Source of the DNA: Candidatus Hydrogenedentota bacterium | GTDB taxonomy: Bacteria > Hydrogenedentota > Hydrogenedentia > Hydrogenedentales > CAITNO01 | DNA length: 43,328 nt | Assembly (NCBI GenBank): GCA_012730045.1 | Contig: JAAYBR010000096.1 | Location: 1-43,328, forward strand | Direction: 5' to 3' | In this document: piece after piece, positions 17,420 through 42,838 of the stretch | Position numbering within the stretch: position 1 is the stretch's first letter | How the letters are laid out: each line of letters begins with the position of its first letter | Made by a program: the position numbers and the translations under genes | The notes under the pieces: generated by a model | Told to the model about the DNA's origin: nothing | Database searches by the model: none | What the model saw: only the letters and a program-made list of their open reading frames with translations

Positions 17420-18028
17420 ATGACGGAGATCACACAGCCTCACTGGCATTCCCGGGGCTATCTGCCGCATTTCGACTGTCCAAACACCGTGCAGCATGTC
17501 ACCTTCCGGCTTGCGGACAGTCTGCCCGCCGCCGCCCTGACCCGGATGGAGGGGGAACTCTTTCTTCTGCCGGAGGAACAGCGGGATCCGGAGCGCAGAA
17601 AGTCGCTGGAGGAACTTGCGGACGCCGGCCACGGTTCTTGCATCCTGCGGCGGCCCGACGCCGCCCTTCTTGTGCAGAGTGCCCTGCTGATGTTTGACGG
17701 GGACAGGTACCGGATGCTGGCCTGGGTGGTCATGCCGAACCATGTGCATGCGCTGATGGAGCCCTTGAACGGCTGGACGCTGGGGAAAATTGTGTGGTCA
17801 TGGAAGTCTTTCACCGGAAGGCGTCTGGCCCCGTTGTTGGGCAATGTATCCGCTGGCAGAGTCTGGCACCGGGAGTATTGGGACCGTTTTGTCAGGAACG
17901 CAGACCATTTCCGCAATGTCGTGGAATACATCCACTGGAATCCCGTAAAGGCGGGGCTGGCGCGGTCTCCGCAGGAGTATGAATGGAGCAGTGCCGGACG
18001 GGGTGTCCTCCGCTATGGAGGAGAGTGA
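17420..18028 (+). CDS. REP-associated tyrosine transposase (RAYT), Y1/HUH family
   Basis: 202 aa. It contains the IS200-like single-strand transposase core: the HUH-type metal motif HVH (108-110) in WVVMPNHVHALMEP, a likely catalytic tyrosine at 153 (WHREYWDRFVRN), and the RAYT-typical YIHWNPVKAGL (170-180). RAYTs cleave single-stranded REP hairpins and are thought to spread them without moving their own gene as a classical insertion sequence. GGAGG lies eight bases before the ATG. The gene sits exactly between repeat copy 2 (ends 17391) and the left arm of copy 3 (starts 18047), the arrangement seen for RAYT genes with their own REPs. It looks intact. Confidence 0.93.
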   Translation: MTEITQPHWHSRGYLPHFDCPNTVQHVTFRLADSLPAAALTRMEGELFLLPEEQRDPERRKSLEELADAGHGSCILRRPDAALLVQSALLMFDGDRYRMLAWVVMPNHVHALMEPLNGWTLGKIVWSWKSFTGRRLAPLLGNVSAGRVWHREYWDRFVRNADHFRNVVEYIHWNPVKAGLARSPQEYEWSSAGRGVLRYGGE

Positions 18029-18185: not shown

Positions 18186-18668
18186 TCACAGCGCTCCGAG
18201 GATCTCCTCCTTCCCTTTCAGGTACTCCTCTTCGGTGATGATCCCATCCTTGTAAAGCTGGTGCAGCTTTCTCAGCTTCTCGTCGAAATCCGGGTTGTCG
18301 GCATTCTCCGGCGGCGCGCTTCCCAGACGGATGCCTGTCTCCTCCACCGCATCCTTGATCACGCCGCCCGCCATTCTGGCCCAGGGTTCCACGTCCTCCC
18401 GCGCCCGCTGCGGATCAAGAACCAAGCCGGACCCGGCCAGCCCCCGGGAGCCGATGCCCGCAAGAACCATCCCCACCATCATCATGCCCAAGCCTCCGAA
18501 GGCCCGTATCATGATGGATTTCGCGATGACTTGCATGTGGGTGAAGTCCCCAAAGTGTGTGATGAACGACACAAAGGTGGATCCAAAACTCAGGAAACCC
18601 AGGATAATCAGCGTCAGGCCAACGTAGTAGACCGTCTTTCGCTCCGGCGAGATGTTTTGCCTCTTCAT
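18186..18668 (-). CDS. Membrane protein with C-terminal SHOCT domain
   Basis: 160 aa. Two membrane helices are predicted (about 14-36 and 52-72; VYYVGLTLIILGFLSFG and FGGLGMMMVGMVLAGIG). The last 30 residues form a SHOCT domain (FDEKLRKLHQLYKDGIITEEEYLKGKEEIL), a short helical module that often ends membrane or DUF proteins and probably mediates oligomerisation. ATG 18668 has AAGGAGGGG upstream; a GTG immediately before it (18671) is an alternative. It lies between the RAYT region and the sigma-factor gene and has no obvious partner. Confidence 0.82.
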   Translation of the reverse strand: MKRQNISPERKTVYYVGLTLIILGFLSFGSTFVSFITHFGDFTHMQVIAKSIMIRAFGGLGMMMVGMVLAGIGSRGLAGSGLVLDPQRAREDVEPWARMAGGVIKDAVEETGIRLGSAPPENADNPDFDEKLRKLHQLYKDGIITEEEYLKGKEEILGAL

Positions 18669-18954
18669 CACTCCCCTCCTTCATACGGCTGAGACCTGTT
18701 TTCACCCGGGCGCGCCACAAGCGGCACCCACACACCGCAAACCAGGATACGGCAGAGGCGGCAGAAAATCAAGCGCCGTTTCCTCCACGGACCAGTCAAC
18801 GAAACTACTGTTGGGGAGATTTGGCTCCAGCCTGGCCGCTTTTTTTCCCGTGATGTCCTCTCGTGAATCCCATCCACGACTTGTCGCATTCCGTCCCCCC
18901 GGCGGCATCCTTATAATGGAGGCCGGAAACACCGGCCGAACCGGGAGCGCTGGC
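18669..18954. other. Intergenic region with repeat fragment and possible -10 box
   Basis: No gene is seen in this divergent gap. It holds a REP-arm fragment at 18823-18837 and a consensus TATAAT at 18912-18917, 38 bases before the sigma-factor start codon. No good -35 hexamer lies at 16-18 bases from that box, so the promoter assignment is weak or the promoter may use another sigma factor. Confidence 0.4.
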
Positions 18955-21900
18955 ATGAACGAGTCGGAACTGGTCACACGGATCCTTGCGGGCGAGGAAA
19001 GCCTGTTCGCGCAGATTGTGTCCCGCTACAGCGGGTGCGTGTGGGCGGTCTGCTCCAGCTATGTGCGGAACCCGAGCGAGTGCGAGGACGTGGCGCAGGA
19101 GGTGTTCGTGCAGGGATACCGGCGGCTGGACACGCTGCGCAACCCGCGCGCCCTCGGCGCGTGGCTGTGCCAGCTGGCGCGCCGCCATTCGCTGATGTGG
19201 CTGCGGGGCGCGGCGCGGCGCGAGCACTCCCTGGCCCGCTACGGGGAGACGCTTCCCGCGCCCGTGCCGGACAGCGGGTCCGGGGCGCGCGGGGAACTGG
19301 AGGAGGCGGTCTGGGACGCCCTGCACGGGCTGCCGGAGCTGTACCGGGAGGCGCTCCTGCTGCGCTACGCCGAGGGCTATTCAACGGAGCAGGCTGCGGC
19401 GGCCCTGGGCATATCGGCCGCCGCCCTGCGAAAACGCACCGAACGCGCGAGGAACCTGCTGCGCGACGCCCTGTGGGAGCGCATGACCCCGGCGCTGGAG
19501 AAGCGCAGGCACAGCGGGGACTTGGAGAGGGGCATTCTGGCCGCCATTCCGTTCGGCACCGCGCCCTGGCTGGGTGCGGCGGGAACGGGGGGCGCGGCCG
19601 TGTCAGTAACCTCAATGAAGGGAGGGACCAGCACTATGTTCGGAAAGATCACCCTGATGGCGGGCGCCATCGCACTCACCCTGCTCGGGGGAAAGGCGGC
19701 GTTGCAGTTCGCTTCCGCCCCGGATGCCGCGACACCGCCACCCCTCGCGATGCAGACGGATCAAACGGATCAGTCGGAGGCGGCCCCCGCCGTTTCCGCA
19801 ACCCCCGAACCGGCCGACGCGGCCGCCGCGTTGCCGTCCCCGGAAGCGGTCCCCGGTGTCACGCCTGCGGCGGAGACCGCGTCCCCCGCGCCCGCCGTCG
19901 CGCGGGAAATCCATGCCGCACCGGCCCATGTGTCCGGACGCGTCACTGACGGCGAGGGCAATCCCCTTGCGAACGCGGATGTGTTCCTGGAGGTGGGCCG
20001 GGGACTGGACCGGAACGATGTGTGTGGGCACTATCATACCCGGACCGGCCAGGACGGCCGATACCAGATCGCCGGAGTGGGGGACTTTGGGCCGGGGGTG
20101 CTGTACGCCGTCGCTGACGGATTCTGCATGGCGTTTCACCTCTGCGACCCGTCGGAGGGCGGCAGCCTGCGGGGGGTGAACGTGGAACTGTCCCCGGCGG
20201 TCCATTTCGTGGCGGGCCGGGTCGTTGACGGGAACGGCGCGCCGGTGCCCGGGGCCTCCGTGGACTGCCTGTACTATGGATACGATCTGGAGGGCCTCGC
20301 GGAAACCGCGAAAACGGGCGTGACCACGGGAAACATTGGGGGCGTCAAGCTAGTCTTCACCGCCTCCAGCGAGGACGGGGCGTTCCGCGTCGCCCTGCCG
20401 CATGGCGGCCTGTGCGATTTCCGCGTGGTCGGGGAGGGGCATGGAACGGGTTTCTTCCCCAGGGTGCCGACAGGGGAAGAGAACGCGATGTTCGCCCTGA
20501 ACCCCGGCGGGGTGCTCTCCGGCACCGTGACCGACACCGAGGGACGGCCCGTGCCCAACGTCCCCGTCCGCATTGCCGGGGAGGCACGGCCCGGCGGTCT
20601 GTCCCTCGTTCTGGCGAAGATTCAGCCGCTGCCGGCGCCCCCCGTCACCGTTGTGACCGGGGCCGACGGCGGTTACCGGGCGGCGGACCTGGGCGCGGAT
20701 TTCTCCTATTCGGTGGCCGTTATCCCCCCCGAACAGGAGGACACCGGAACGCTTCCCACGGAACAGGGGGTGCGCCGGATTGCCGAAATGATGCGCCAAC
20801 ACGACCAATCCATGCATGTTGAGGAGGTTTCCGCGGGGAAGAAAGGGCTCCGGGTGCAGGCAGGGCGGGAGACGGCGGGAGCAGACCTCATCCTCGGGGC
20901 GACCTCCTTCGCCACGCTGCGCGGACGGGTCACCGACCGCACCACGGGCCGGCCGGCATGCCCCGTGGTCGTCACAGCTGCCGTCTACGGCGGCGGCGCG
21001 AAAGACTATTTCCAGGCGAAGCGGGGCTGTTCCGCCGTGACGCTTCCGGACGGCCGCTATGAGCTGCGCCTCTCGAACCTGACCGCGCCCGTGGAGTTCA
21101 GCGTGGGGCACCTGTACATGACGGAGGGCGGCAGCGCCTGGGACCAGCCGGAAGAGGAACTCGCCACGGTCACCCTGGGCCCCGGGGAAACGCGGGAGCT
21201 GGACCTGGCGGTGGATGCGCCCGTCACCGCCCCGGTGCGCTATGTGGGCCTGGACGGCAAACCGCGGCAGGGCATTGCGGCCGCCATGCGCATGGCGGGC
21301 GCCCGGGGAGGGTGCGGCGGAGCGCTGGTCTCCGGCGCGGACGGGCGGGTGGTCTTCCACGGCCTGCGGCCCGGCGTGAGCCTTGAGGCCCTCGCCTGGC
21401 TGGGCACCGGATCAAGGACCGACACCATCGGTGTGAGCGGGGCGTTCACGGGAAAACCGGGCGAGACGGTGCCCGAGGTCACCGTGGTCTGCCGTCTTGC
21501 CGGAGGCGTGGAAGGCCTGCTCACCTATCCCGACGGACGCCCTGCGGCAAACACGGCACTGCGGTGCCGCTTGCAGGAGGGGGAAGCCAACACCGCCGGG
21601 GCCTCCGCCACCACCGATGCTTCGGGCTACTTCCAGCTCCCCGCCAGTTTGCCTGAAGGCCGGCATCCGGGCATCGTGGTGGAGTTCCTCGACCGGGAAA
21701 CCGCCACGGCCTATACGGACACAGCCGAAGAGGTGGAGATCGCCGCCGGGACGCTGACCAGCCTAGGAACGCTGGCGGCGGCGGCGGAAACGGATTTGGC
21801 GCGGGTTGTGGACGCCGTGGGCTGGGACCACACCTCCAACACTGCCATCGCGCAGAACTACACGCCGGAGGCGCTCGGTACCCTTCCAGATCCGGACGCG

Positions 21901-22209
21901 GTGCTGAAGACAGGGCTTGCCCTCTACGACCTGGAGCGCTATGAGGAGGCCCTCGGCGTATTCGGCCTGCTGGAGGAAGAATCGCGGGACACCCCCCTTC
22001 TCCGGGCTTCGGCCCTCATTTGGCAGGGATATCTGCTGGACCTGCTGGGGCGGCGCGAGGAGGCCCTCGCCGCCTACGACGCGGCGGCGGACACCGGGGC
22101 AGCCGGTGTCATGCGTCATGACCAGTTCGGGATCTCCTACGAACCCGCCCGGGAGGCCGAGGCGCGGCGGACCGCGCCCTTCGTGCGGGTGGAGAACCTT
22201 GAAAAATAA
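18955..22209 (+). CDS. ECF sigma factor fused to a membrane anchor, carboxypeptidase-regulatory-like domains and TPR-like tail
   Basis: 1084 aa. Residues 17-83 are sigma-70 region 2 (ESLFAQIVSRYSG...), 116-170 region 4 (LPELYREALLLRYAEGYS..., helix-turn-helix TEQAAAALGISAAALRKR). A single membrane helix follows (231-249), then an Ala/Pro linker (about 255-320) and at least five carboxypeptidase-regulatory-like/beta-sandwich repeats starting near 326, 419, 521, 656 and 850 (e.g. VSGRVTDGEGNPLANADVF). The C-terminus (about 980-1050) looks like TPR helices. The sigma part would face the cytoplasm and the rest the outside. ATG 18955 has GGGAGCGC upstream; ATG 18916 is in frame but falls inside a -10-like box. 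A strong internal ribosome-binding site precedes Met228. No separate anti-sigma gene is nearby. Confidence 0.87.
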   Translation: MNESELVTRILAGEESLFAQIVSRYSGCVWAVCSSYVRNPSECEDVAQEVFVQGYRRLDTLRNPRALGAWLCQLARRHSLMWLRGAARREHSLARYGETLPAPVPDSGSGARGELEEAVWDALHGLPELYREALLLRYAEGYSTEQAAAALGISAAALRKRTERARNLLRDALWERMTPALEKRRHSGDLERGILAAIPFGTAPWLGAAGTGGAAVSVTSMKGGTSTMFGKITLMAGAIALTLLGGKAALQFASAPDAATPPPLAMQTDQTDQSEAAPAVSATPEPADAAAALPSPEAVPGVTPAAETASPAPAVAREIHAAPAHVSGRVTDGEGNPLANADVFLEVGRGLDRNDVCGHYHTRTGQDGRYQIAGVGDFGPGVLYAVADGFCMAFHLCDPSEGGSLRGVNVELSPAVHFVAGRVVDGNGAPVPGASVDCLYYGYDLEGLAETAKTGVTTGNIGGVKLVFTASSEDGAFRVALPHGGLCDFRVVGEGHGTGFFPRVPTGEENAMFALNPGGVLSGTVTDTEGRPVPNVPVRIAGEARPGGLSLVLAKIQPLPAPPVTVVTGADGGYRAADLGADFSYSVAVIPPEQEDTGTLPTEQGVRRIAEMMRQHDQSMHVEEVSAGKKGLRVQAGRETAGADLILGATSFATLRGRVTDRTTGRPACPVVVTAAVYGGGAKDYFQAKRGCSAVTLPDGRYELRLSNLTAPVEFSVGHLYMTEGGSAWDQPEEELATVTLGPGETRELDLAVDAPVTAPVRYVGLDGKPRQGIAAAMRMAGARGGCGGALVSGADGRVVFHGLRPGVSLEALAWLGTGSRTDTIGVSGAFTGKPGETVPEVTVVCRLAGGVEGLLTYPDGRPAANTALRCRLQEGEANTAGASATTDASGYFQLPASLPEGRHPGIVVEFLDRETATAYTDTAEEVEIAAGTLTSLGTLAAAAETDLARVVDAVGWDHTSNTAIAQNYTPEALGTLPDPDAVLKTGLALYDLERYEEALGVFGLLEEESRDTPLLRASALIWQGYLLDLLGRREEALAAYDAAADTGAAGVMRHDQFGISYEPAREAEARRTAPFVRVENLEK

Positions 22210-22313: not shown

Positions 22314-22366
22314 AGCGGCGGTTTGTGCGCCGTCGGGTTGGATTGTCTTCACTGGAGCCCCCCCAA

Positions 22367-23644
22367 GTGCGTCCCCTTGCTGAAAGAAAGCCCTTTGCGC
22401 CGCTGCTTGCGGTGGTGTTTGCCGCCCTGCTGGCGGCGCTCTGCCCGCCCCTTTCCGCGCAGGACGCCGCGAAGACCCCCGCGCGCCTGTCGGCCGCGCA
22501 GCGGGACATCGGCGGCGTGACGTATGTCTCCCTCTCCCAGCTGGCCGACCAGTTGGGGGCGACGGTGCTGGTGGCGAACGGCGGCGTCGAAGTGTCGCTG
22601 GAGGGCGCCAAGGCTGTCGCCCTGCTGAACGACCCCGCCGTATCGGCGGGGCAGACCCGTTTCCCCCTCAACCATCCCCTGATTGCCGAGCAGGGGACCG
22701 CCTTTGTGTCCCTTGCGGACGCCGCGCCGTTTTTCCAGCAGGCCTTCGGGGTGGCGGTTTCGCTCGCCGGGCCCGCCCCCGCGGACACCGCCCTGCTGGC
22801 CCCGTCCACGCCTTTGGAGGCCCCCCTGGAGGAGGAGGATCCCGCCGCCCTGCTGGAAACGGTGGAGCCGTTGACCCCCGCCGCCGAAGCCCCCGCCGCC
22901 GAAGCCCCCCCCGTGGAGGAACCGCCCGCACTGGAACCGCTCGTTCCTGAACCGCCGGAGGCGGCAGACCCGGAGATGACCCCGGCACCCGAAACGCAGC
23001 CCCCCCCGGCGGAGGAGGAATCCGAACGGCCCGCAGTGGAGGTGCTTGTCAAAGGTCCGGTGGTTTCGCTCGTGCTGGACCCCGGCCACGGCGGCTCGGA
23101 TGCCGGCTCCACCGGCCCGAACGGCCTCCAGGAAAAGGGCGTGACCCTGGCACTGGCCCAGCGCGTGGCCGCAAAGTTCGCGGAGCTTTCCCAAATCCCC
23201 GCAGCCCTCACGCGGGCCGACGACCAGACCATGACCGCCGGCGAGCGGACGGTGGCGCAGGGGGTGCGGCCCGGCGCGCTGATCGTAAGCATCCACATCG
23301 GCGCCTCCTCAGCGCCCGCAGCCCCGGTCACCGTGCTGCATCCCGCCGTGCGCGGGGAGGGCGGCGACGCCGACGGTCTCGCGGCGCGCGCGGCGGATCT
23401 GGCCGCCGGCCTGGCGGCCGCCCTCACCGGCGCAAACCAGCCGGCCGCCGTGCACAGCGCCCCCCTGCGGGTGCAGACGGCGGCGGCGGTGCCCTGCATC
23501 CTCCTGGAGTGCGGCACCCTGGCCACGGCGGAGGGCGAGGCCGCCCTGACGGATGAGGCGGCGGCCGCAAGCCTCGCGGACGCCCTGGCGGCCGCCCTGG
23601 CGCAGACCCTGGAGGCGTTCAACGCCCGGGAACAAACCCCGTGA
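22367..23644 (+). CDS. N-acetylmuramoyl-L-alanine amidase (Amidase_3) with N-terminal copper-amine-oxidase-like domain
   Basis: 425 aa. A signal peptide (about 1-32) is followed by a small 'copper amine oxidase N-terminal-like' domain (45-130), a long Pro/Glu-rich spacer (135-228) and a zinc amidase domain (232-425). Likely zinc ligands are H241 (LDPGHGG), E256 (LQEKG) and H310 (SIHIG), and the catalytic glutamate is E380 (LLECGT). It cleaves the bond between muramic acid and the stem peptide in the periplasm, as in cell separation. GTG 22367 with GGAG upstream is preferred; GTG 22325 is in frame. It begins a run of envelope genes with very short gaps. Confidence 0.88.
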   Translation: MRPLAERKPFAPLLAVVFAALLAALCPPLSAQDAAKTPARLSAAQRDIGGVTYVSLSQLADQLGATVLVANGGVEVSLEGAKAVALLNDPAVSAGQTRFPLNHPLIAEQGTAFVSLADAAPFFQQAFGVAVSLAGPAPADTALLAPSTPLEAPLEEEDPAALLETVEPLTPAAEAPAAEAPPVEEPPALEPLVPEPPEAADPEMTPAPETQPPPAEEESERPAVEVLVKGPVVSLVLDPGHGGSDAGSTGPNGLQEKGVTLALAQRVAAKFAELSQIPAALTRADDQTMTAGERTVAQGVRPGALIVSIHIGASSAPAAPVTVLHPAVRGEGGDADGLAARAADLAAGLAAALTGANQPAAVHSAPLRVQTAAAVPCILLECGTLATAEGEAALTDEAAAASLADALAAALAQTLEAFNAREQTP

Positions 23645-23663
23645 CAAAAGGCATGGTACACAC

Positions 23664-24329
23664 GTGAAGAGCGGAGCGAAAAAGAGCATCCTGTTCCGGC
23701 TGGCCCTTTCCCTGTGGGCGCTGGCCACGCTGGTGCTGTGCGTGGTCGTCGCGGCGATGGCCGCCGAAATGATCAAGACAGGGCGCAGCCCCATGACGGC
23801 GCTCACCGCCCCCCTCCCCGCCGGGGACGCGGCCGGGGAGCGGGCTGCGAACGCAACGCCCGAGACGTTGAAAACCGCCCAGTTGTATTTCGCCGCCGAG
23901 GACGAGAGCGGGCTCGCGCCCGAGCCGGCCTCGCTGGAGTGGGGCCCCCGCACGGTGGAGAACTGCCGCAGGGCCCTGACGGCGCTGGTGGCGGGGCCCC
24001 GCCAGCCGGGACTGGCCGCCGTGTTCCCCGAGGGCACGCGCGTCCGCGGCGTCTATCTGCTGGACGGCGGCGAGCTGGTGGTGGACTTCTCGAACGAGAT
24101 TTCGCTGGGCGCGATGCGCCAGCGCAGCGCCGCCCGCGAGGCCCTGCTGACCCAGGCCATCGCGACCACCCTCGTGCAGGAGGCCCTGCGCGGCACGGAC
24201 GACCAAAGCCTCCGGTCCGTGCGCATTCTGATCGAGGGTGCCCCGCCCCTGGAGCAGTTCCCCGCGCATCTGGACTGGTCGCAGCCCGTCCTGCCCGACC
24301 CCGGCTGGGTGCAGGCGCAGATGCAATGA
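23664..24329 (+). CDS. GerMN-domain membrane-anchored protein
   Basis: 221 aa. One N-terminal membrane segment (about 8-34: FRLALSLWALATLVLCVVVAAMA) anchors an extracytoplasmic GerMN domain (about 60-180: AQLYFAAED..., LDGGELVVDFSNEI). GerMN modules were named from the Bacillus spore protein GerM and frequently accompany amidases, suggesting a role in peptidoglycan remodelling; no sporulation is implied. The GTG start is chosen because it directly precedes the positively charged n-region; AAAAGGC lies upstream. It lies 19 bases after the amidase, and its stop overlaps the murI start codon (ATGA). Confidence 0.84.
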   Translation: MKSGAKKSILFRLALSLWALATLVLCVVVAAMAAEMIKTGRSPMTALTAPLPAGDAAGERAANATPETLKTAQLYFAAEDESGLAPEPASLEWGPRTVENCRRALTALVAGPRQPGLAAVFPEGTRVRGVYLLDGGELVVDFSNEISLGAMRQRSAAREALLTQAIATTLVQEALRGTDDQSLRSVRILIEGAPPLEQFPAHLDWSQPVLPDPGWVQAQMQ

Positions 24330-25144
24330 GCGGGGGGGGCCCCAAAGAGCCCGCCATCGGCGTGTTCGATTCCGGGGTCGGCGGGCTGACGGTCTTCCGC
24401 CGCATCGCCGAGGCCCTCCCCCGCGAGCATCTCTGCTACTTGGGCGACACCGCCCGGGTGCCCTACGGCACCAAGTCGGCCGACACGGTCATCCGCTACG
24501 CCCGCTCCTGCGCCGCCCACCTCCGGGCCCGGGGCATCAAGATGCTGGTCGTCGCCTGCAACACCGCCTCCGCCTACGCGCTGGAAGTCCTCCGCGATGA
24601 GCTGCCCCTTCCCGTGATCGGCGTGGTCGAACCCGGCGCGCGCGCCGCCATCGCCCGCACCAAGACGGGCCGCGTGGGCGTCATCGGCACCCCGGGCACG
24701 GTTGCCAGCGGCGCCTATGTCCGCGCCATTGCCGCCCTCTCCCCGGACATCCGGGTCTATTCCCAGGCCTGCCCGCTGTTCGTCCCGCTGGTGGAGGACG
24801 GCTGGACCACCGGTCCCGTCCCCGAAGCCGTGGCATCGCGGTATTTGGACAGACTGGCCGCAAGGGGGGTGGACACTCTGGTGCTGGGATGCACCCACTA
24901 CCCCCTCCTGCGCGGGGTCATTGCCAAGGCCATGGGTCCGAAGGTTTGCCTCGTGGACAGCGCCAAAGAAACAGCCAAGGCGGTTGTGGAAACCCTCCAG
25001 GACCGGGCAATGCTCCAGACGGGAACCCGCCCTGGCCGCCGGGAGTTTTACGCGAGTGACGCCCCGGAGAGTTTTGCCAAGGTGGGGGCCCGGATGCTGG
25101 GCCCGCGCACCCCCCTCGCGCAGGTGGAATGGGTGGATGTTTAG
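24326..25144 (+). CDS. murI: Glutamate racemase
   Basis: 272 aa, cytoplasmic. It makes D-glutamate for the peptidoglycan stem peptide. Both catalytic cysteines are present in their usual contexts: C78 in VACNTASA and C189 in LGCTHYPLL. The N-terminal IGVFDSGVGGLTV and the segment YLGDTARVPYGTKS are typical. The start codon overlaps the stop of the GerMN gene by four bases. The seven codons after the start include a run of eight Gs (24332-24339). Confidence 0.96.
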   Translation: MSGGGPKEPAIGVFDSGVGGLTVFRRIAEALPREHLCYLGDTARVPYGTKSADTVIRYARSCAAHLRARGIKMLVVACNTASAYALEVLRDELPLPVIGVVEPGARAAIARTKTGRVGVIGTPGTVASGAYVRAIAALSPDIRVYSQACPLFVPLVEDGWTTGPVPEAVASRYLDRLAARGVDTLVLGCTHYPLLRGVIAKAMGPKVCLVDSAKETAKAVVETLQDRAMLQTGTRPGRREFYASDAPESFAKVGARMLGPRTPLAQVEWVDV

Positions 25145-26801
25145 ATTCATGCCGCCCAGTTTGTTGCCAAAAACACACATGTTTGTGTTTATTATTGTCT
25201 TTATTTGCCTGTTAGTACCCGCTGGCCATGCCGATGACCCAACAAGCGCATCCGCCATTGCGCAACGCTGCCACGTCCTGTTGGAAGGGCTGGGCTATGC
25301 CCCGGACACCATCCGGGAGGGCCGTGTGGATGCGTCCGACTCCTTTGTTCTCAACGCACCCTTTTCCGGGGCGCGCTCTTGGGGTGACACCCGGGCGGCG
25401 TTTGTGGCGGAATTCGTCCGTTTGGGGGTGACGGTGGTGGAGGCACCCGGGCTGGACGACTATGCCGCCCTGCATCTCTTCCGGGGGGGGCAGTTGATCG
25501 GGGAGGTGGTGTTTCTCCCGGTGGAGATGACCGAAGAGCCCGAAGAGACGGAGGTGCCCGAGGAGGTCCCCGCCGTTGTGAAAGCACCGCCTGAACCGCC
25601 AACTGCCGCTCAGGAAGCGCTTTCCCTCCCTCCGGACCCGGACCCCGAAAGCTCCTCCCCCCCCCTCGAGGAACCCGAATCCGCGCCGACCGATCCTTCG
25701 GCCTGTGAAGCCGTCACGGACCTGGTCCGTCATGTCCTCCTGACAGGCGGTGTTCCGGAGGACCATTTTGCTCCCGAAGGGCAGTCCCCGGCGGCGCAGC
25801 CGCCGAAATTAACCGTCACCCTTCCGCCGGAAATCGCCGTGGAACAGGTGGCCGAATGGGTGGAATCCGCGACCGCCGAATACGGGTTCTATTTGGAGAC
25901 CTATCAGGGGGGGCCCCACCGGGCCATCCTCCGGGTAAGCCAGGAGCACAGCTCCTGCCTGGAGCTCGTCTGCGTGACGGAGGCGCAGGAGCCTTGGGCG
26001 GTGGCGGGCACCGCCGCCGAACCCGTGCCGCCTGCATCCCCGCCCCCCGCGCCCCTTCCGGAGCCGGTTCCGCCCGCACAAGAAAGCGCCCCTCCGCTGG
26101 TGCCCGCACCGGCGAAAAAGGCCCCCCCCGCCGGGGGGAAGGGGCCGGTTCGGGTGGCCATCATCCTCGACGATGGCGGTTGGGGCGGCCCGGAGACGCG
26201 CCGGGTGCTGACGCTGGACAACCGGCTGACGCTGGCGATCCTGCCGAACGCGCCAAAGACGGAGGCGCTGGCGAGGGAGGCGGCGGAGAAGGGCTTCGAG
26301 GTGATGCTGCACATGCCGATGGAATCCAGCCTGACGGCGCGGAAATTCCCCGGCCAGGTTGAGACGTCCATGGACCGGGAAACCATCCACCGGCTCGCCC
26401 GCGAGGCCGTGGCCCAAGTTCCGGGACTCGTGGGGGTGAACAACCACACCGGCACCCTGTTCACGCAGGACGCGGAGCGGATGGGCTGGTTCATGGAGGT
26501 GCTGCGGGAGAAGAACCTGTACTTCGTGGACAGCATGACCACCGCCAAGTCTGCGGCCCACGCCGCCGCCGGGGCGGCGGGGCTCAAGGCGGCGCGCCGG
26601 GATGTGTTCCTGGACAACGACGCCAGCCTTCCCTACATCCGCAACCAGGTGCGGGAGCTGGTCAAGCGCGCGCGGACGCGCGGCAGCGCCGTGGCCATCG
26701 GCCACTTCCGCCGAAACACCGTCACCGTGCTGGAGGAAATCCTTCCGGGACTGGAAAAGGAGGGCGTGGTGTTGACACGCATGTCGGAGCTGGTGCAATG
26801 A
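25137..26801 (+). CDS. Secreted divergent polysaccharide deacetylase (YibQ-like) with long proline-rich linker
   Basis: 554 aa. A signal peptide (hydrophobic core FVFIIVFICLLV) precedes a region of unclear fold (about 35-125), acidic/proline-rich stretches, a second small domain (about 185-290), another proline-rich linker and the 'divergent polysaccharide deacetylase' domain from about residue 336 (VAIILDDGG...; LHMPMES; NNHTGTLFT; IGHFRRNTV). The DD and HxP-type motifs suggest metal-dependent deacetylation of a glycan, possibly peptidoglycan; the family is poorly characterised. ATG 25137 overlaps the end of murI by eight bases; ATG 25149 and 25179 are in-frame alternatives. Its stop overlaps the tsaD start. 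Confidence 0.85.
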   Translation: MFRFMPPSLLPKTHMFVFIIVFICLLVPAGHADDPTSASAIAQRCHVLLEGLGYAPDTIREGRVDASDSFVLNAPFSGARSWGDTRAAFVAEFVRLGVTVVEAPGLDDYAALHLFRGGQLIGEVVFLPVEMTEEPEETEVPEEVPAVVKAPPEPPTAAQEALSLPPDPDPESSSPPLEEPESAPTDPSACEAVTDLVRHVLLTGGVPEDHFAPEGQSPAAQPPKLTVTLPPEIAVEQVAEWVESATAEYGFYLETYQGGPHRAILRVSQEHSSCLELVCVTEAQEPWAVAGTAAEPVPPASPPPAPLPEPVPPAQESAPPLVPAPAKKAPPAGGKGPVRVAIILDDGGWGGPETRRVLTLDNRLTLAILPNAPKTEALAREAAEKGFEVMLHMPMESSLTARKFPGQVETSMDRETIHRLAREAVAQVPGLVGVNNHTGTLFTQDAERMGWFMEVLREKNLYFVDSMTTAKSAAHAAAGAAGLKAARRDVFLDNDASLPYIRNQVRELVKRARTRGSAVAIGHFRRNTVTVLEEILPGLEKEGVVLTRMSELVQ

Positions 26802-39179: not shown

Positions 39180-40136
39180 GTGGCAAAGGACATGGGTGTG
39201 GATGCGGCCCGGCTGGACCGGGCGCGGGGGTGTCTGCTGGGGCAGCTCGCGGGGGACTCTCTGGGATCGCTGGTGGAGTTCATGCGGCCGGGGGAAATCC
39301 GGGAGGAGCACCCGGACGGGGTGTGGGATCTGGAGGACGGCGGCTCCTGGAACACCCTGGCGGGGCAGCCGACGGACGACTCGGAAATGGCCCTGGCCCT
39401 GGCGCGGTCGCTGGCGGAGCGGGGTGTCTTCAACCCGGGCGCGGTGCGCGGGGCGTATGTGGACTGGCTGCACTCCCACCCCTTTGACATCGGGAACACG
39501 GTCTCCTCGGGGCTGCGCGGCTTTCTGAACCGGGACAGCCAGGCGAACGGGGCCCTGATGCGCGTGAGCCCGCTGGGCATCTTCGGCGCGGGCCGGCCGG
39601 AGGATGATGTGGCGGCGTGGGCCGCCGCGGACGCCGCCCTCACGCACCCCCACCCCGTCTGCGTCGGGGCCAATGTGCTGTACACCCTGGCCGTCGCGCA
39701 CGCCGTGGACGCGGGGCCCGCCCCGGACGCGCTGTACGCCCGCATGCTCGCGTGGGCAAAGGAATGGAAAGTGCCGGCGCCGCTCCGCGACGCCCTCACG
39801 GCCGCCGCCGACAACCCGCCCGCCGAGTACCTTTCCCAGATGGGGTGGGTGCTCATTGCGTTTCAGAACGCCGTGTGGCAGATGCTCCACGCCCCCTCGC
39901 TGGAGGACGGAATCGTGGACACGGTCATGCGGGGCGGGGACACGGACACCAACGCGGCCATCTGCGGCGCCCTGCTGGGCGCGGTGCACGGGCTGGACGC
40001 CGTGCCCCAGCGGTGGGTGGACGACATCCTGGACTGCCGCCCCGAAGCCGGCAGGCCGGGCGTGCACCGCGCGCGGCCGGAATGCTACTGGCCCGTGGAC
40101 GCCCTGGAACTGGCGGAGGCCCTCCTCGCGCGGTAG
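39180..40136 (+). CDS. ADP-ribosylglycohydrolase (DraG-like)
   Basis: 318 aa, cytoplasmic, all-alpha. It belongs to the family that removes ADP-ribose from proteins or hydrolyses related N-glycosides. The two metal-binding signatures are intact: GQLAGDSLG (21-29) with PTDDSEM (64-70), and RGGDTDTNAAICGALLGA (given as RGGDTDTNAA at 251-260). GTG 39180 is preferred because GGAGG lies nine bases upstream; ATG 39192 is in frame but too close to AAAGGA. No ADP-ribosyltransferase (DraT or toxin) is encoded nearby, so the target is unknown. It converges on the Hel308-like gene, four bases apart. Confidence 0.9.
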   Translation: MAKDMGVDAARLDRARGCLLGQLAGDSLGSLVEFMRPGEIREEHPDGVWDLEDGGSWNTLAGQPTDDSEMALALARSLAERGVFNPGAVRGAYVDWLHSHPFDIGNTVSSGLRGFLNRDSQANGALMRVSPLGIFGAGRPEDDVAAWAAADAALTHPHPVCVGANVLYTLAVAHAVDAGPAPDALYARMLAWAKEWKVPAPLRDALTAAADNPPAEYLSQMGWVLIAFQNAVWQMLHAPSLEDGIVDTVMRGGDTDTNAAICGALLGAVHGLDAVPQRWVDDILDCRPEAGRPGVHRARPECYWPVDALELAEALLAR

Positions 40137-40140
40137 GCGG

Positions 40141-42759
40141 TCACGCCACGCCGTCCAGCAGCAGGCAACGGACCTGTTCGGGCGGCAGTTCCAGCAGAAA
40201 GCCCCGCCGGGGCACGGTGCGGATGACGCCGCGCCAGTCCCCCGCCGCCGCGGCGATCCGCTTGAGCAGCATGTTCTTCTGGAAGTGCATCTGGTTGTCC
40301 TCCACCACCGCGTCCCCCCACACCTCGCCGTAGAGCCGGTCGTAGGGCACGCACTCGCCCGGGGCCGCCGCCAGCGCGCGGATGAGCCGGTACTGCTTGT
40401 CCTGAAGGAGCACGACCCGGCCGCGGATGCGGATTTCCCCCGGCCGCCGGTCGTCCACCACCAGCACGGCCTCCGGGGGGGCCGTCTCCGGCGCGGCGGA
40501 TTCGGGGGTGCCCGCCCATTTGCGCAGGGCCGCCGCCTGCGCCGGGTTCAGCAGCCGCCCCAGCGCCTCGTCGGACACGGCATGCACCGCCTCCGGCGTG
40601 GTCAGCCCGGCGGCGCCCAGCGCGAGAAGCGCGGCGCGGTCCAGCGGCGCGCCCACCCCGCGCGCGAGGGCCAGCGCGGCGTCCCCCACGCCGCGCGCCA
40701 GCCGCGCGGACAGGCCGTCGAGCCGGTCCACCAGCGCCTGCGGCGCGGCGAGGGCGTCGGCCAGGCCCGCGGCGGCGTCGGCCAGCCAGGCGGCCTGCTC
40801 CGCCGACGCGAGCACCTGCCCCGCCGTGGTCTCCAGGGCCTCCTCGATGTCCGCGAGGGACGTTTCGCGCAGCCACTCGTCGAGCATGAGGGCGGCCTTC
40901 ACGGCGCGCACCTCGTCAAAAAACGGCGTGAGGCGGCAGGACCGCAGGCGGTTGAGCGGCGTGTCGGCCTGCATCTCCTGCGAGGCCGCCGCGCACTTGA
41001 TCCGTCCCGGATAGTCGGCGTGCTCGTACTCCCGCGCCGTGAGGGTCACATGCAGCATGCGGCCCTCCGCCGTCAATCCCGCCGCCAGCAGGAAGTCGAG
41101 GTCAAGCCAGGTCCGGTCGCCGGACAGGCGCACCCACCGGCGCAGCGCGTCCGCCGTGGCCAGGCTGATCCCCCGCGCCGCCGTCACCCGCCCGAAGGGC
41201 GTGGTCTCCAGGGGCGTCTCCCGCGAAAAGGCCGCGTCCGCCGCCGCGCGGCCCTCCCCGGCGGCCGTCCGCAGCGCCCCCGCCTCCATGCAGCGCCGCA
41301 CGGCGTTTTCCACGCGGAACCCCAGCTCCTCCGGACGCCGCTTCCCGGCCCAGGCCACCCGGGCCGCCAGGGTGCGCGCGAAAAAAGCCTCCAGTTCCGC
41401 GGCGGAACGGCACATCCGCGCGGCCACCAGCCGCAGGGAGAGGTCGTCCAGGGGCGCGCCGGCCAGCGGCGTCTCCAGCGCGGGCCGCGCCGCCTGCACA
41501 TAGCACCGCCACAGGCTCTCCTGGTCGAAGGGCGCCGCCGCCACCAGCACGGAGCGCCCGAAGGCGCGCCCCGCGCCGAAACGGCCCGCGCGGCCGCTCA
41601 TGTTCTCGTACTCGCCGTACTCGATGGGGGCGCGCCAGGGCAGCTCGAAGCGGGGGTGGTAAATCCACTTGTCCGCGCTGAGGAACACGTTGGCCGCGGG
41701 CAGGTTCATCCCCGCCGCCAGCGTGCCGGTGGACACGAGGATGCGCGCCTCCCCGGAGCGGAAGGCCGCCTCCACCACCCGGCGCTCGGCGGGCGTCAGG
41801 TCCGTGTTGTGGAAGGCGACCCCGCCGTTCAGCGTGTGGCGCAGCAGGTCGCGGCAGCGCGTGGGCTCCAGCGCGGACAGCGCCTCCTGCGCCGCAGGCG
41901 CGGCGGGCAGGCGCACCCGCCCCGCCAGCAGCTCCGCGCCCCGGCGCGCCTCGTATTTCGACTTCACAAAGACCAGGCAGCCCTCCCCCGCCTCCGCCAG
42001 GGCGCGCACGTTCTGCGTGAGGGCCTCCCAGGTGGACGCGCCGGGCGTCTCCACCAGGCGCTCCTCGCCCTCCGACCGGTCGTTGTGCGTCCGGTACTTG
42101 TACACCCCGTCGTGCAGCACGCCGTAGCGCAGTTCCACGGGCCGCCGCTCCTCGCGCAGCAGCCGCGCCCCCAGCCACTCCGCCGCCCGGTCCGCCCCGC
42201 CCAGCGAGGCCGACAGGCCGATCACCCGCCGCCCCGACACCGCCAGGGCCGTCAGCAGCACCTCCGCCTCCGCGCCCCGGTCCGGGTCCGCCAGCAGGTC
42301 CATCTCGTCCGCCACCACCACCCCCAGCTCGTTCAGCCGCTCCGGCCGCGTGGTCAGCAGCTGGGCGAACTTCTCATACACCGCCACGGCCAGGTCGAAC
42401 CCGCCCCTGGAAAAGGCCTCGTCATGCTCGCGGTGGTCCCGCGACGAGACGATCACCCGGAGCCCCAGCGCGCCGTAGCGCTCGCGGAACAGGGTGAACT
42501 TCTCCTCCGCCAGCGCCTTCAGCGGCACCAGATACACCGCCTTGCCCCGGCTCATGGCCGCGTCCACCGCCGCCATCTCGCCGATGAAGGTCTTCCCCGA
42601 ACTCGTCGGCGCCTGCACCAGCAGGTTGCCCCCCCGGAACAGGTCATACTCCGTCACCGCCCGCGCCTGCAGCGGCAGCAGCCGCTCCCCCTGCGTCTCC
42701 CGCCACCGCGCCACCGCGCGTCCCGAAGCCCCGTATTCCGCCAGCCGCATCATGTCCAT
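40141..42759 (-). CDS. Hel308-like (Ski2-type) helicase with C-terminal OmpR/PhoB-type winged helix
   Basis: 872 aa. Helicase domain 1 has Walker A APTSSGKT (50-57) and DEMD (151-154) in place of the DExH box; domain 2 includes LVFVKSKYEARRG, STGTLAAGMNLPA and the motif VI region YENMSGRAGRFG. A winged-helix and helical-bundle region follows, then a helix-hairpin-helix-like segment (about 700-735). Residues about 772-858 match the response-regulator effector domain: L-Q-D-K-Q-Y-R-LIRALAAAPGECVPYDRLYGEVWG and IRTVPRRGFLLEL, the latter equivalent to the wing. This fusion is not a Hel308 architecture I know. ATG 42759 has GGAGGAT eight bases upstream. It is transcribed from a consensus promoter with a palindromic spacer. 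Confidence 0.88.
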   Translation of the reverse strand: MDMMRLAEYGASGRAVARWRETQGERLLPLQARAVTEYDLFRGGNLLVQAPTSSGKTFIGEMAAVDAAMSRGKAVYLVPLKALAEEKFTLFRERYGALGLRVIVSSRDHREHDEAFSRGGFDLAVAVYEKFAQLLTTRPERLNELGVVVADEMDLLADPDRGAEAEVLLTALAVSGRRVIGLSASLGGADRAAEWLGARLLREERRPVELRYGVLHDGVYKYRTHNDRSEGEERLVETPGASTWEALTQNVRALAEAGEGCLVFVKSKYEARRGAELLAGRVRLPAAPAAQEALSALEPTRCRDLLRHTLNGGVAFHNTDLTPAERRVVEAAFRSGEARILVSTGTLAAGMNLPAANVFLSADKWIYHPRFELPWRAPIEYGEYENMSGRAGRFGAGRAFGRSVLVAAAPFDQESLWRCYVQAARPALETPLAGAPLDDLSLRLVAARMCRSAAELEAFFARTLAARVAWAGKRRPEELGFRVENAVRRCMEAGALRTAAGEGRAAADAAFSRETPLETTPFGRVTAARGISLATADALRRWVRLSGDRTWLDLDFLLAAGLTAEGRMLHVTLTAREYEHADYPGRIKCAAASQEMQADTPLNRLRSCRLTPFFDEVRAVKAALMLDEWLRETSLADIEEALETTAGQVLASAEQAAWLADAAAGLADALAAPQALVDRLDGLSARLARGVGDAALALARGVGAPLDRAALLALGAAGLTTPEAVHAVSDEALGRLLNPAQAAALRKWAGTPESAAPETAPPEAVLVVDDRRPGEIRIRGRVVLLQDKQYRLIRALAAAPGECVPYDRLYGEVWGDAVVEDNQMHFQKNMLLKRIAAAAGDWRGVIRTVPRRGFLLELPPEQVRCLLLDGVA

Positions 42760-42809
42760 TGCACCATCCTCCAGAGCCGCCCGCACCCCGCGGCCGGCGT
42801 CCAAAGGGT

Positions 42810-42838
42810 AGTATACTGAAAATCCTTTCAGTTGTCAA
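42810..42838 (-). promoter_or_regulatory. Consensus promoter with palindromic spacer, Hel308-like gene
   Basis: On the minus strand TTGACA (42833-42838) and TATACT (42810-42815) are separated by exactly 17 bases. Sixteen of those spacer bases (42816-42831) form the perfect inverted repeat CTGAAA-N4-TTTCAG, filling the space between the boxes. This is a strong operator candidate: a bound dimer there would exclude RNA polymerase. The binding protein is unknown; the winged helix of the encoded protein is one possibility. Confidence 0.8.

Follow-up and report, generated by a model that had tools for sequence, protein, structure and literature searches.

The window analysed here, a stretch of 43,328 nucleotides that makes up one entire contig of a 4.46 Mb Candidatus Hydrogenedentota genome, carries on its forward strand a single open frame that runs for 1084 amino acids without a stop. 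Domain searches and structure models showed this one chain to run from ECF sigma regions 2 and 4 through a single membrane helix and beta domains to a helical tail, in agreement with the original prediction for the locus (Table 1). The same frame stays open 5' of 18955 and has an ATG at 18652 as well; we take 18955 to be the correct start because orthologues begin at the corresponding position, with MNE(S/A)EL or MSDSEI. Just upstream lie an IS200-like (Y1) transposase-family protein (17420-18028) and a small SHOCT-domain protein (18186-18671) on the opposite strand.

Table 1. Features of the sigma-sensor fusion gene and its upstream region, in window coordinates.
Feature	Position	Strand	Basis
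Bipartite promoter-like element TGTCGC-N16-GGCATC-N-TTATAAT, 5' of gene (putative function)	18882..18917	+	Orthologue alignment
Complete 1084-aa fusion of sigma part, membrane helix and extracytoplasmic region	18955..22209	+	Open frame; orthologues with same start
Sigma-70 region 2, residues 22-89	19018..19221	+	Pfam PF04542 Sigma70_r2, E 6.8e-11; AlphaFold
Sigma-70 region 4, residues 117-167	19303..19455	+	Pfam PF08281 Sigma70_r4_2, E 5.2e-13; AlphaFold
Short linker helix (residues 188-197) with which the orthologue-conserved ILAAIPFGTAPW segment begins	19516..19545	+	AlphaFold, moderate confidence
Internal Shine-Dalgarno AAGGGAGGG	19618..19626	+	Read directly; duplex energy; orthologue codons
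Candidate internal start codon ATG, Met228	19636..19638	+	Orthologue invariance; start-site signature across fusions
Predicted second product, 857 aa: anchor/signal segment and extracytoplasmic region, no sigma	19636..22209	+	Predicted from the internal start
Membrane helix, residues 230-254	19642..19716	+	AlphaFold helix; hydropathy
Pro/Ala-rich stalk, residues 253-322	19711..19920	+	Sequence; unstructured, low confidence in model
Carboxypeptidase-regulatory/Ig-like beta-domain array, residues 324-941	19924..21777	+	Pfam PF13620; strands in model; Foldseek
Helical TPR-like tail, residues 948-1073	21796..22173	+	Helices in model; weak TPR matches, E 0.02

With regions 2 and 4 present and little else, the sigma part is of the ECF (group 4) kind, and its score against the sigma70-ECF model TIGR02937 (74.1 bits) lies above the cut-off of 42.9. 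Scores fell below the cut-off for the Rhodopirellula/Verrucomicrobium family TIGR02989 (75.8 against 124.55 bits) and for Planctomycetaceae subfamily 1, TIGR02984 (41.1 against 183.75 bits). A full-length AlphaFold model built from six sequences had low confidence in the sigma part, and because it was weak there we remodelled residues 1-255 from 30 diverse relatives. In this second model the sigma domains have pLDDT values of mostly 96-98 and are followed by a disordered linker and the membrane helix; its best matches among solved structures were ECF sigma factors, with SigW-RsiW on top. About a third of the fusions carry an IMxxxxAxPxAW-like linker segment, as judged with a simple pattern. 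No Pfam match to FecR or another anti-sigma domain was found in the 1084-aa protein up to E 0.1, and between the sigma part and the helix there was neither a match to a ZAS-type zinc finger at the same threshold nor a linker domain of that sort in the model.

The membrane helix is of modest hydropathy (mean 1.71 over 19 residues). Beyond it the full-length model has strands over residues 324-941, and helices follow over residues 948-1073. Four stretches of the beta array match CarboxypepD_reg (PF13620, E 2.1e-25), and Foldseek matched the array to tandem Ig-like pilin proteins with low TM-scores. The tail, proposed to be TPR-like, is helical in the model, and its TPR match in sequence is weak (E 0.022).

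Searching related genomes for conserved fusions returned intact orthologues in six of them. Three are full-length and come from genomes of the same family (G002, 67% identity; G012, 62%; G015, 60%), one is full-length and comes from another family (G051, 48%), a further one in G060 has the same fusion, and that of G054 (41%) is shorter and matches up to residue 948. Hydrogenedentota, sampled here as 68 genomes all of one order and all with sigma matches, hold about 128 related fusions (one sigma match, G000:C100, was left out of this count, the stretch giving no long frame on translation). Many of the genomes encode numerous fusions, with at least 17 in G054 by open-frame length, and looser relatives occur in Sumerlaeota, Verrucomicrobiota and Planctomycetota. 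In a set of 43 diverse fusions, Pfam found sigma regions 2 and 4 in all 43, CarboxypepD_reg in 32 and CarbopepD_reg_2 in 29. The original prediction had set the protein beside the C-terminally extended ECF factors of planctomycetes; the architecture turns out to be very common in Hydrogenedentota and to occur in other phyla as well.

Two genes wrongly merged near 19600, through an error of sequencing or assembly, would give the appearance of such a fusion, and the original prediction had itself named this as grounds for abandoning its reading. Every genome used is a draft assembly, and one relative has its two parts in different frames. Against this, orthologues from several further genomes have the fusion intact and many related fusions exist, and we regard the chance of a merging error as negligible. 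Thus, we conclude that the frame from 18955 to 22209 is not a sequencing error, because orthologues carry the same fusion intact; the fusion, its domain order and its conservation, and likewise the start-site signature described below, can be read directly from the sequences.

Several other arrangements were met among the relatives. In the one just mentioned, L022 (G058:C167), the sigma part and the sensor part lie in two different frames, which represents a frameshift, a pseudogene or an assembly error; it had been considered as a stand-alone homologue without sigma, and this was rejected when the sigma part was found upstream in the other frame. In a second type of fusion, about 530-590 aa or more in length, the single helix and the beta array are replaced by several hydrophobic segments behind the sigma part, with members in Hydrogenedentota (L031, L124, L160) and in Verrucomicrobia and others (L042, L044, L051, L056). 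One Verrucomicrobiales contig carries five tandem sigma-membrane fusions (L338, G074:C113:1200-10200), and many more lie elsewhere in that genome. In alignment A4, 3 of the 43 fusions have a match to STN, a domain of secretins and TonB-dependent transducers; this hints at a connection with signalling at the outer membrane.

Directly 5' of the membrane helix the frame reads AAG GGA GGG ACC AGC ACT ATG TTC GGA AAG. The original prediction had not noticed that this joint holds an internal ribosome-binding site with a start codon behind it: the Shine-Dalgarno sequence (SD) AAGGGAGGG pairs with the anti-SD at a duplex energy of -11.8 kcal/mol. Orthologue joints have a similar SD-ATG arrangement directly ahead of the membrane helix. 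Met228 is one of two invariant Met residues across six orthologues, and a purine is retained at the third position of both Gly codons within the SD, as happens in only 7 of 78 invariant Gly columns when four orthologues are compared. Within the clade of the window gene, Met and SD are kept in 9 of 10 members. For the window gene taken alone, the synonymous-codon test was marginal (p 0.076). Over the whole tree the Met/SD trait shows at least ten changes on well-supported branches, so the junction start has been gained or lost often.

We therefore turn to the fusions as a group, defining a junction Met as a Met among the nine residues up to and including the last charged one ahead of the helix. 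Such a Met occurs in 32 of 85 fusions, against 13 expected. At junction Mets the SD exceeds what synonymous codon choice would give (mean z -1.01 over 36 sites), and at Mets elsewhere in the frames there is no SD excess (z +0.12, n=253); the signal peaks at the junction Met and is absent, with z of about 0, at 55 junctions that have no Met. The pattern recurred in 43 held-out fusions not used before (z of -1.17 for the 8 that have a Met and -0.11 for the other 35), although several of these have more than 70% sigma identity to earlier fusions and their independence is partial. When fusions were clustered at 50% sigma identity, a strong SD was present in 12 of 16 clusters with a junction Met, and the paired difference in SD energy had p 7.6e-5. 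As a control, membrane-helix kinases yielded only 6-7 usable cases, none of which has a junction Met.

Junction starts also resemble the genuine starts of sigma genes in each property compared. SD energies were -7.70 kcal/mol at junction starts and -7.32 at genuine sigma starts, against -3.03 at other internal Mets. The change in GC3 over the next six codons was -0.069, -0.095 and +0.010 for the same three groups, and the reduction in mRNA structure +0.87, +0.94 and -0.10, or +0.61, +0.66 and -0.04 when the upstream codons were held fixed. Because junction starts match genuine starts, and because orthologues keep both the SD and the ATG of the joint, the gene probably makes two proteins: the sigma factor in its tethered form and, with no sigma part, a membrane-targeted sensor 857 aa long. 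The idea of a sigma factor held at the membrane with a large extracytoplasmic part thus stands, but its description as a one-protein system is probably incomplete given the conserved joint start. No junction Met is present in 90 of the 128 Hydrogenedentota fusions, so the architecture does not depend on the short form.

Beyond Hydrogenedentota we collected 43 fusions from Sumerlaeaceae, Verrucomicrobia, Phycisphaerae, Planctomycetota and one other bacterial genome, and 28 of them carry a junction Met where 5-6 would be expected. The Sumerlaeota genome has five Met junctions, each with an SD, low GC3 and low structure, which for so small a number is suggestive of the same junction-start signal. 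In the Verrucomicrobiales genome most junction Mets are without SD, with just two genuine starts available for comparison.

An SD-like sequence placed just 5' of a membrane helix could also serve to slow the ribosome for insertion of that helix, with no initiation taking place, and SD-like pausing has been proposed for membrane targeting. Such a role is disfavoured because the SD signal is absent at the 55 junctions that have the same helix and no Met, a result repeated in the 35 held-out junctions of this kind. Moreover, the spacing of the SD fits the Met, and the codons that follow are start-like in GC3 and in their low structure. Pausing for membrane insertion is thus unsupported, and we consider it very improbable.

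A different account accepts the SD and ATG as start signals, but of the past: only the full-length protein would be made, and the signals at the joint would be relics of once-separate, neighbouring sigma and sensor genes. Sigma and anti-sigma genes are usually adjacent (PMC8103513), which favours such an origin. The frequency of the junction Met across phyla even where there is no SD, as in the fusions beyond Hydrogenedentota, is what an old start codon would leave, and its absence from most fusions looks like decay. A relic would be expected to erode, however, and the SD, GC3 and structure signals are still at the level of genuine starts; likewise, in the orthologues of the window gene, the Met and SD codons persist at 41-67% protein identity, as few other Gly third positions do. 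We judge that the joint is rather unlikely to be such a relic, though the idea keeps appreciable weight.

Our preferred model, which we hold with fair confidence, is that of a tethered ECF sigma factor with a probable sigma-less second product, in which proteolysis releases the sigma factor and the short form tunes the response. Sigma domains 2 and 4 would lie in the cytoplasm, and the linker and single membrane helix would lead to an extracytoplasmic beta array that ends in the helical module. The sigma domains would be kept inactive at the membrane, by tethering or by the short linker helix, no recognised anti-sigma domain being present, until the arrival of what we infer to be an envelope signal. 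This signal would trigger proteolytic release, by an S41/DegS-type protease first and then by one of the M50/RseP type. Ribosomes would also start at the joint ATG and so produce the same anchor and sensor with no sigma, and this form would have ligand, partners or proteases in common with the tethered one and may in that way tune the response. Alternatively, the sigma-less form could be the main structural protein and the fusion a minority reporter. We lean slightly towards the wider proposition that one gene gives both a tethered sigma factor and its sensor twin, that their ratio sets sensitivity, and that this arrangement arose or was kept in many Hydrogenedentota lineages and in Sumerlaeota.

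Intramembrane proteolytic release is plausible because the genome encodes M50 and S41 proteases, whose presence indicates a possibility only. A conformational change with no proteolysis might instead allow the membrane-bound sigma factor to recruit RNA polymerase in place. Other membrane-bound transcription regulators act without release, and Pfam recognised neither an anti-sigma domain nor a protease-target domain in the protein. However, suitable proteases are encoded in the genome, IutY needs proteolysis (PMC5411451) and the data for SCO4117 support a proteolysis model (PMC8999054). Activation in place therefore seems to us unlikely.

Judged by its sequence, the protein would be one that works like IutY and SCO4117 and, by the domains tested, is a member of neither group. 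IutY of Pseudomonas putida (ECF243) is a sigma/anti-sigma hybrid that undergoes sequential proteolysis by Prc and RseP (PMC5411451, PMC8999054), and as in the window protein, its ECF sigma domain in the cytoplasm, a single membrane segment and a regulatory part in the periplasm belong to one chain. In IutY, however, this part is an anti-sigma (FecR-like) domain that works with an outer-membrane receptor, where the window protein has its beta array and helical tail. SCO4117 of Streptomyces coelicolor (ECF52) and the groups ECF48 and ECF53 (PMC8999054) share with it a sigma domain, a membrane helix, a Pro-rich extracytoplasmic stretch and an outer domain. These groups carry a ZAS-type zinc-finger region to which the window protein has no match, and SCO4117, from a different phylum, ends in a carbohydrate-binding domain. 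ECF57 and other planctomycete ECF factors (PMC8999054), likened here by description only, have a sigma part with a long C-terminal extension and come from a lineage rich in them.

In-frame internal starts are known from Escherichia coli and Salmonella, in mrcB, arcB, clpB and other genes (PMC11005335), where, as proposed here, one frame gives two products and the shorter differs in localisation or function. The terms 'internal start' and 'translation' are absent from the IutY paper (PMC5411451), and a literature search of incomplete coverage returned no report of an internal start lying between a sigma factor and its membrane sensor. Membrane-tethered sigma fusions are already known, and the new part is apparently the internal start at the joint. 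According to a 2022 review, IutY is the only sigma fusion whose proteolytic activation has been characterised (PMC8999054). Fusions of sigma factors to membrane sensors are known from few proteins, yet they are very numerous in the uncultured Hydrogenedentota. If the model is right, dividing sensor from sigma by a start within the frame would let the reporter-to-sensor ratio be set in a compact manner, and annotation may record a single protein for frames of this kind where two are made.

Upstream of the gene, the bipartite element in the form TGTCGC-N14/15-CGGCATC-N-TTAT is conserved ahead of five aligned orthologues and of the one in G060. A scan of the 68 genomes for the exact pattern located it 5' of six of the orthologues and at just two further sites, G015:C155:84-115 (L305), at a contig edge, and G008:C69:2465-2495 (L300). 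Used on the window's own genome to look for target promoters, the strict pattern returned only the gene itself, and a looser pattern gave five matches, all of which were without the TTAT part. The element suggests autoregulation because it resembles the ECF41-type promoter, TGTCACA-N16-CGTC (PMC3426412), which is similarly bipartite although the letters at -35 and -10 differ (TGTCGC ... GGCATC). ECF41 factors also differ in that their C-terminal domain is soluble, whereas the extension of the window protein spans the membrane. A different reading of the element is possible, as it contains a TATAAT-like box.

The region 3' of the gene (22325-26801) encodes an Amidase_3 protein, a GerMN-domain protein, an Asp/Glu racemase and a divergent polysaccharide deacetylase. 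Outside the window, this order of cell-wall genes recurs only in G001, a genome of the same genus, and tblastn found none of them near the orthologues in G002, G012, G015, G051 and G054, where some of the stretches are short. We infer no regulon from these neighbours, because the neighbourhood is not kept near orthologues. Further along the window, a frame of 1071 aa with no Pfam match (39604-42819) overlaps one of 887 aa on the opposite strand (40141-42804).
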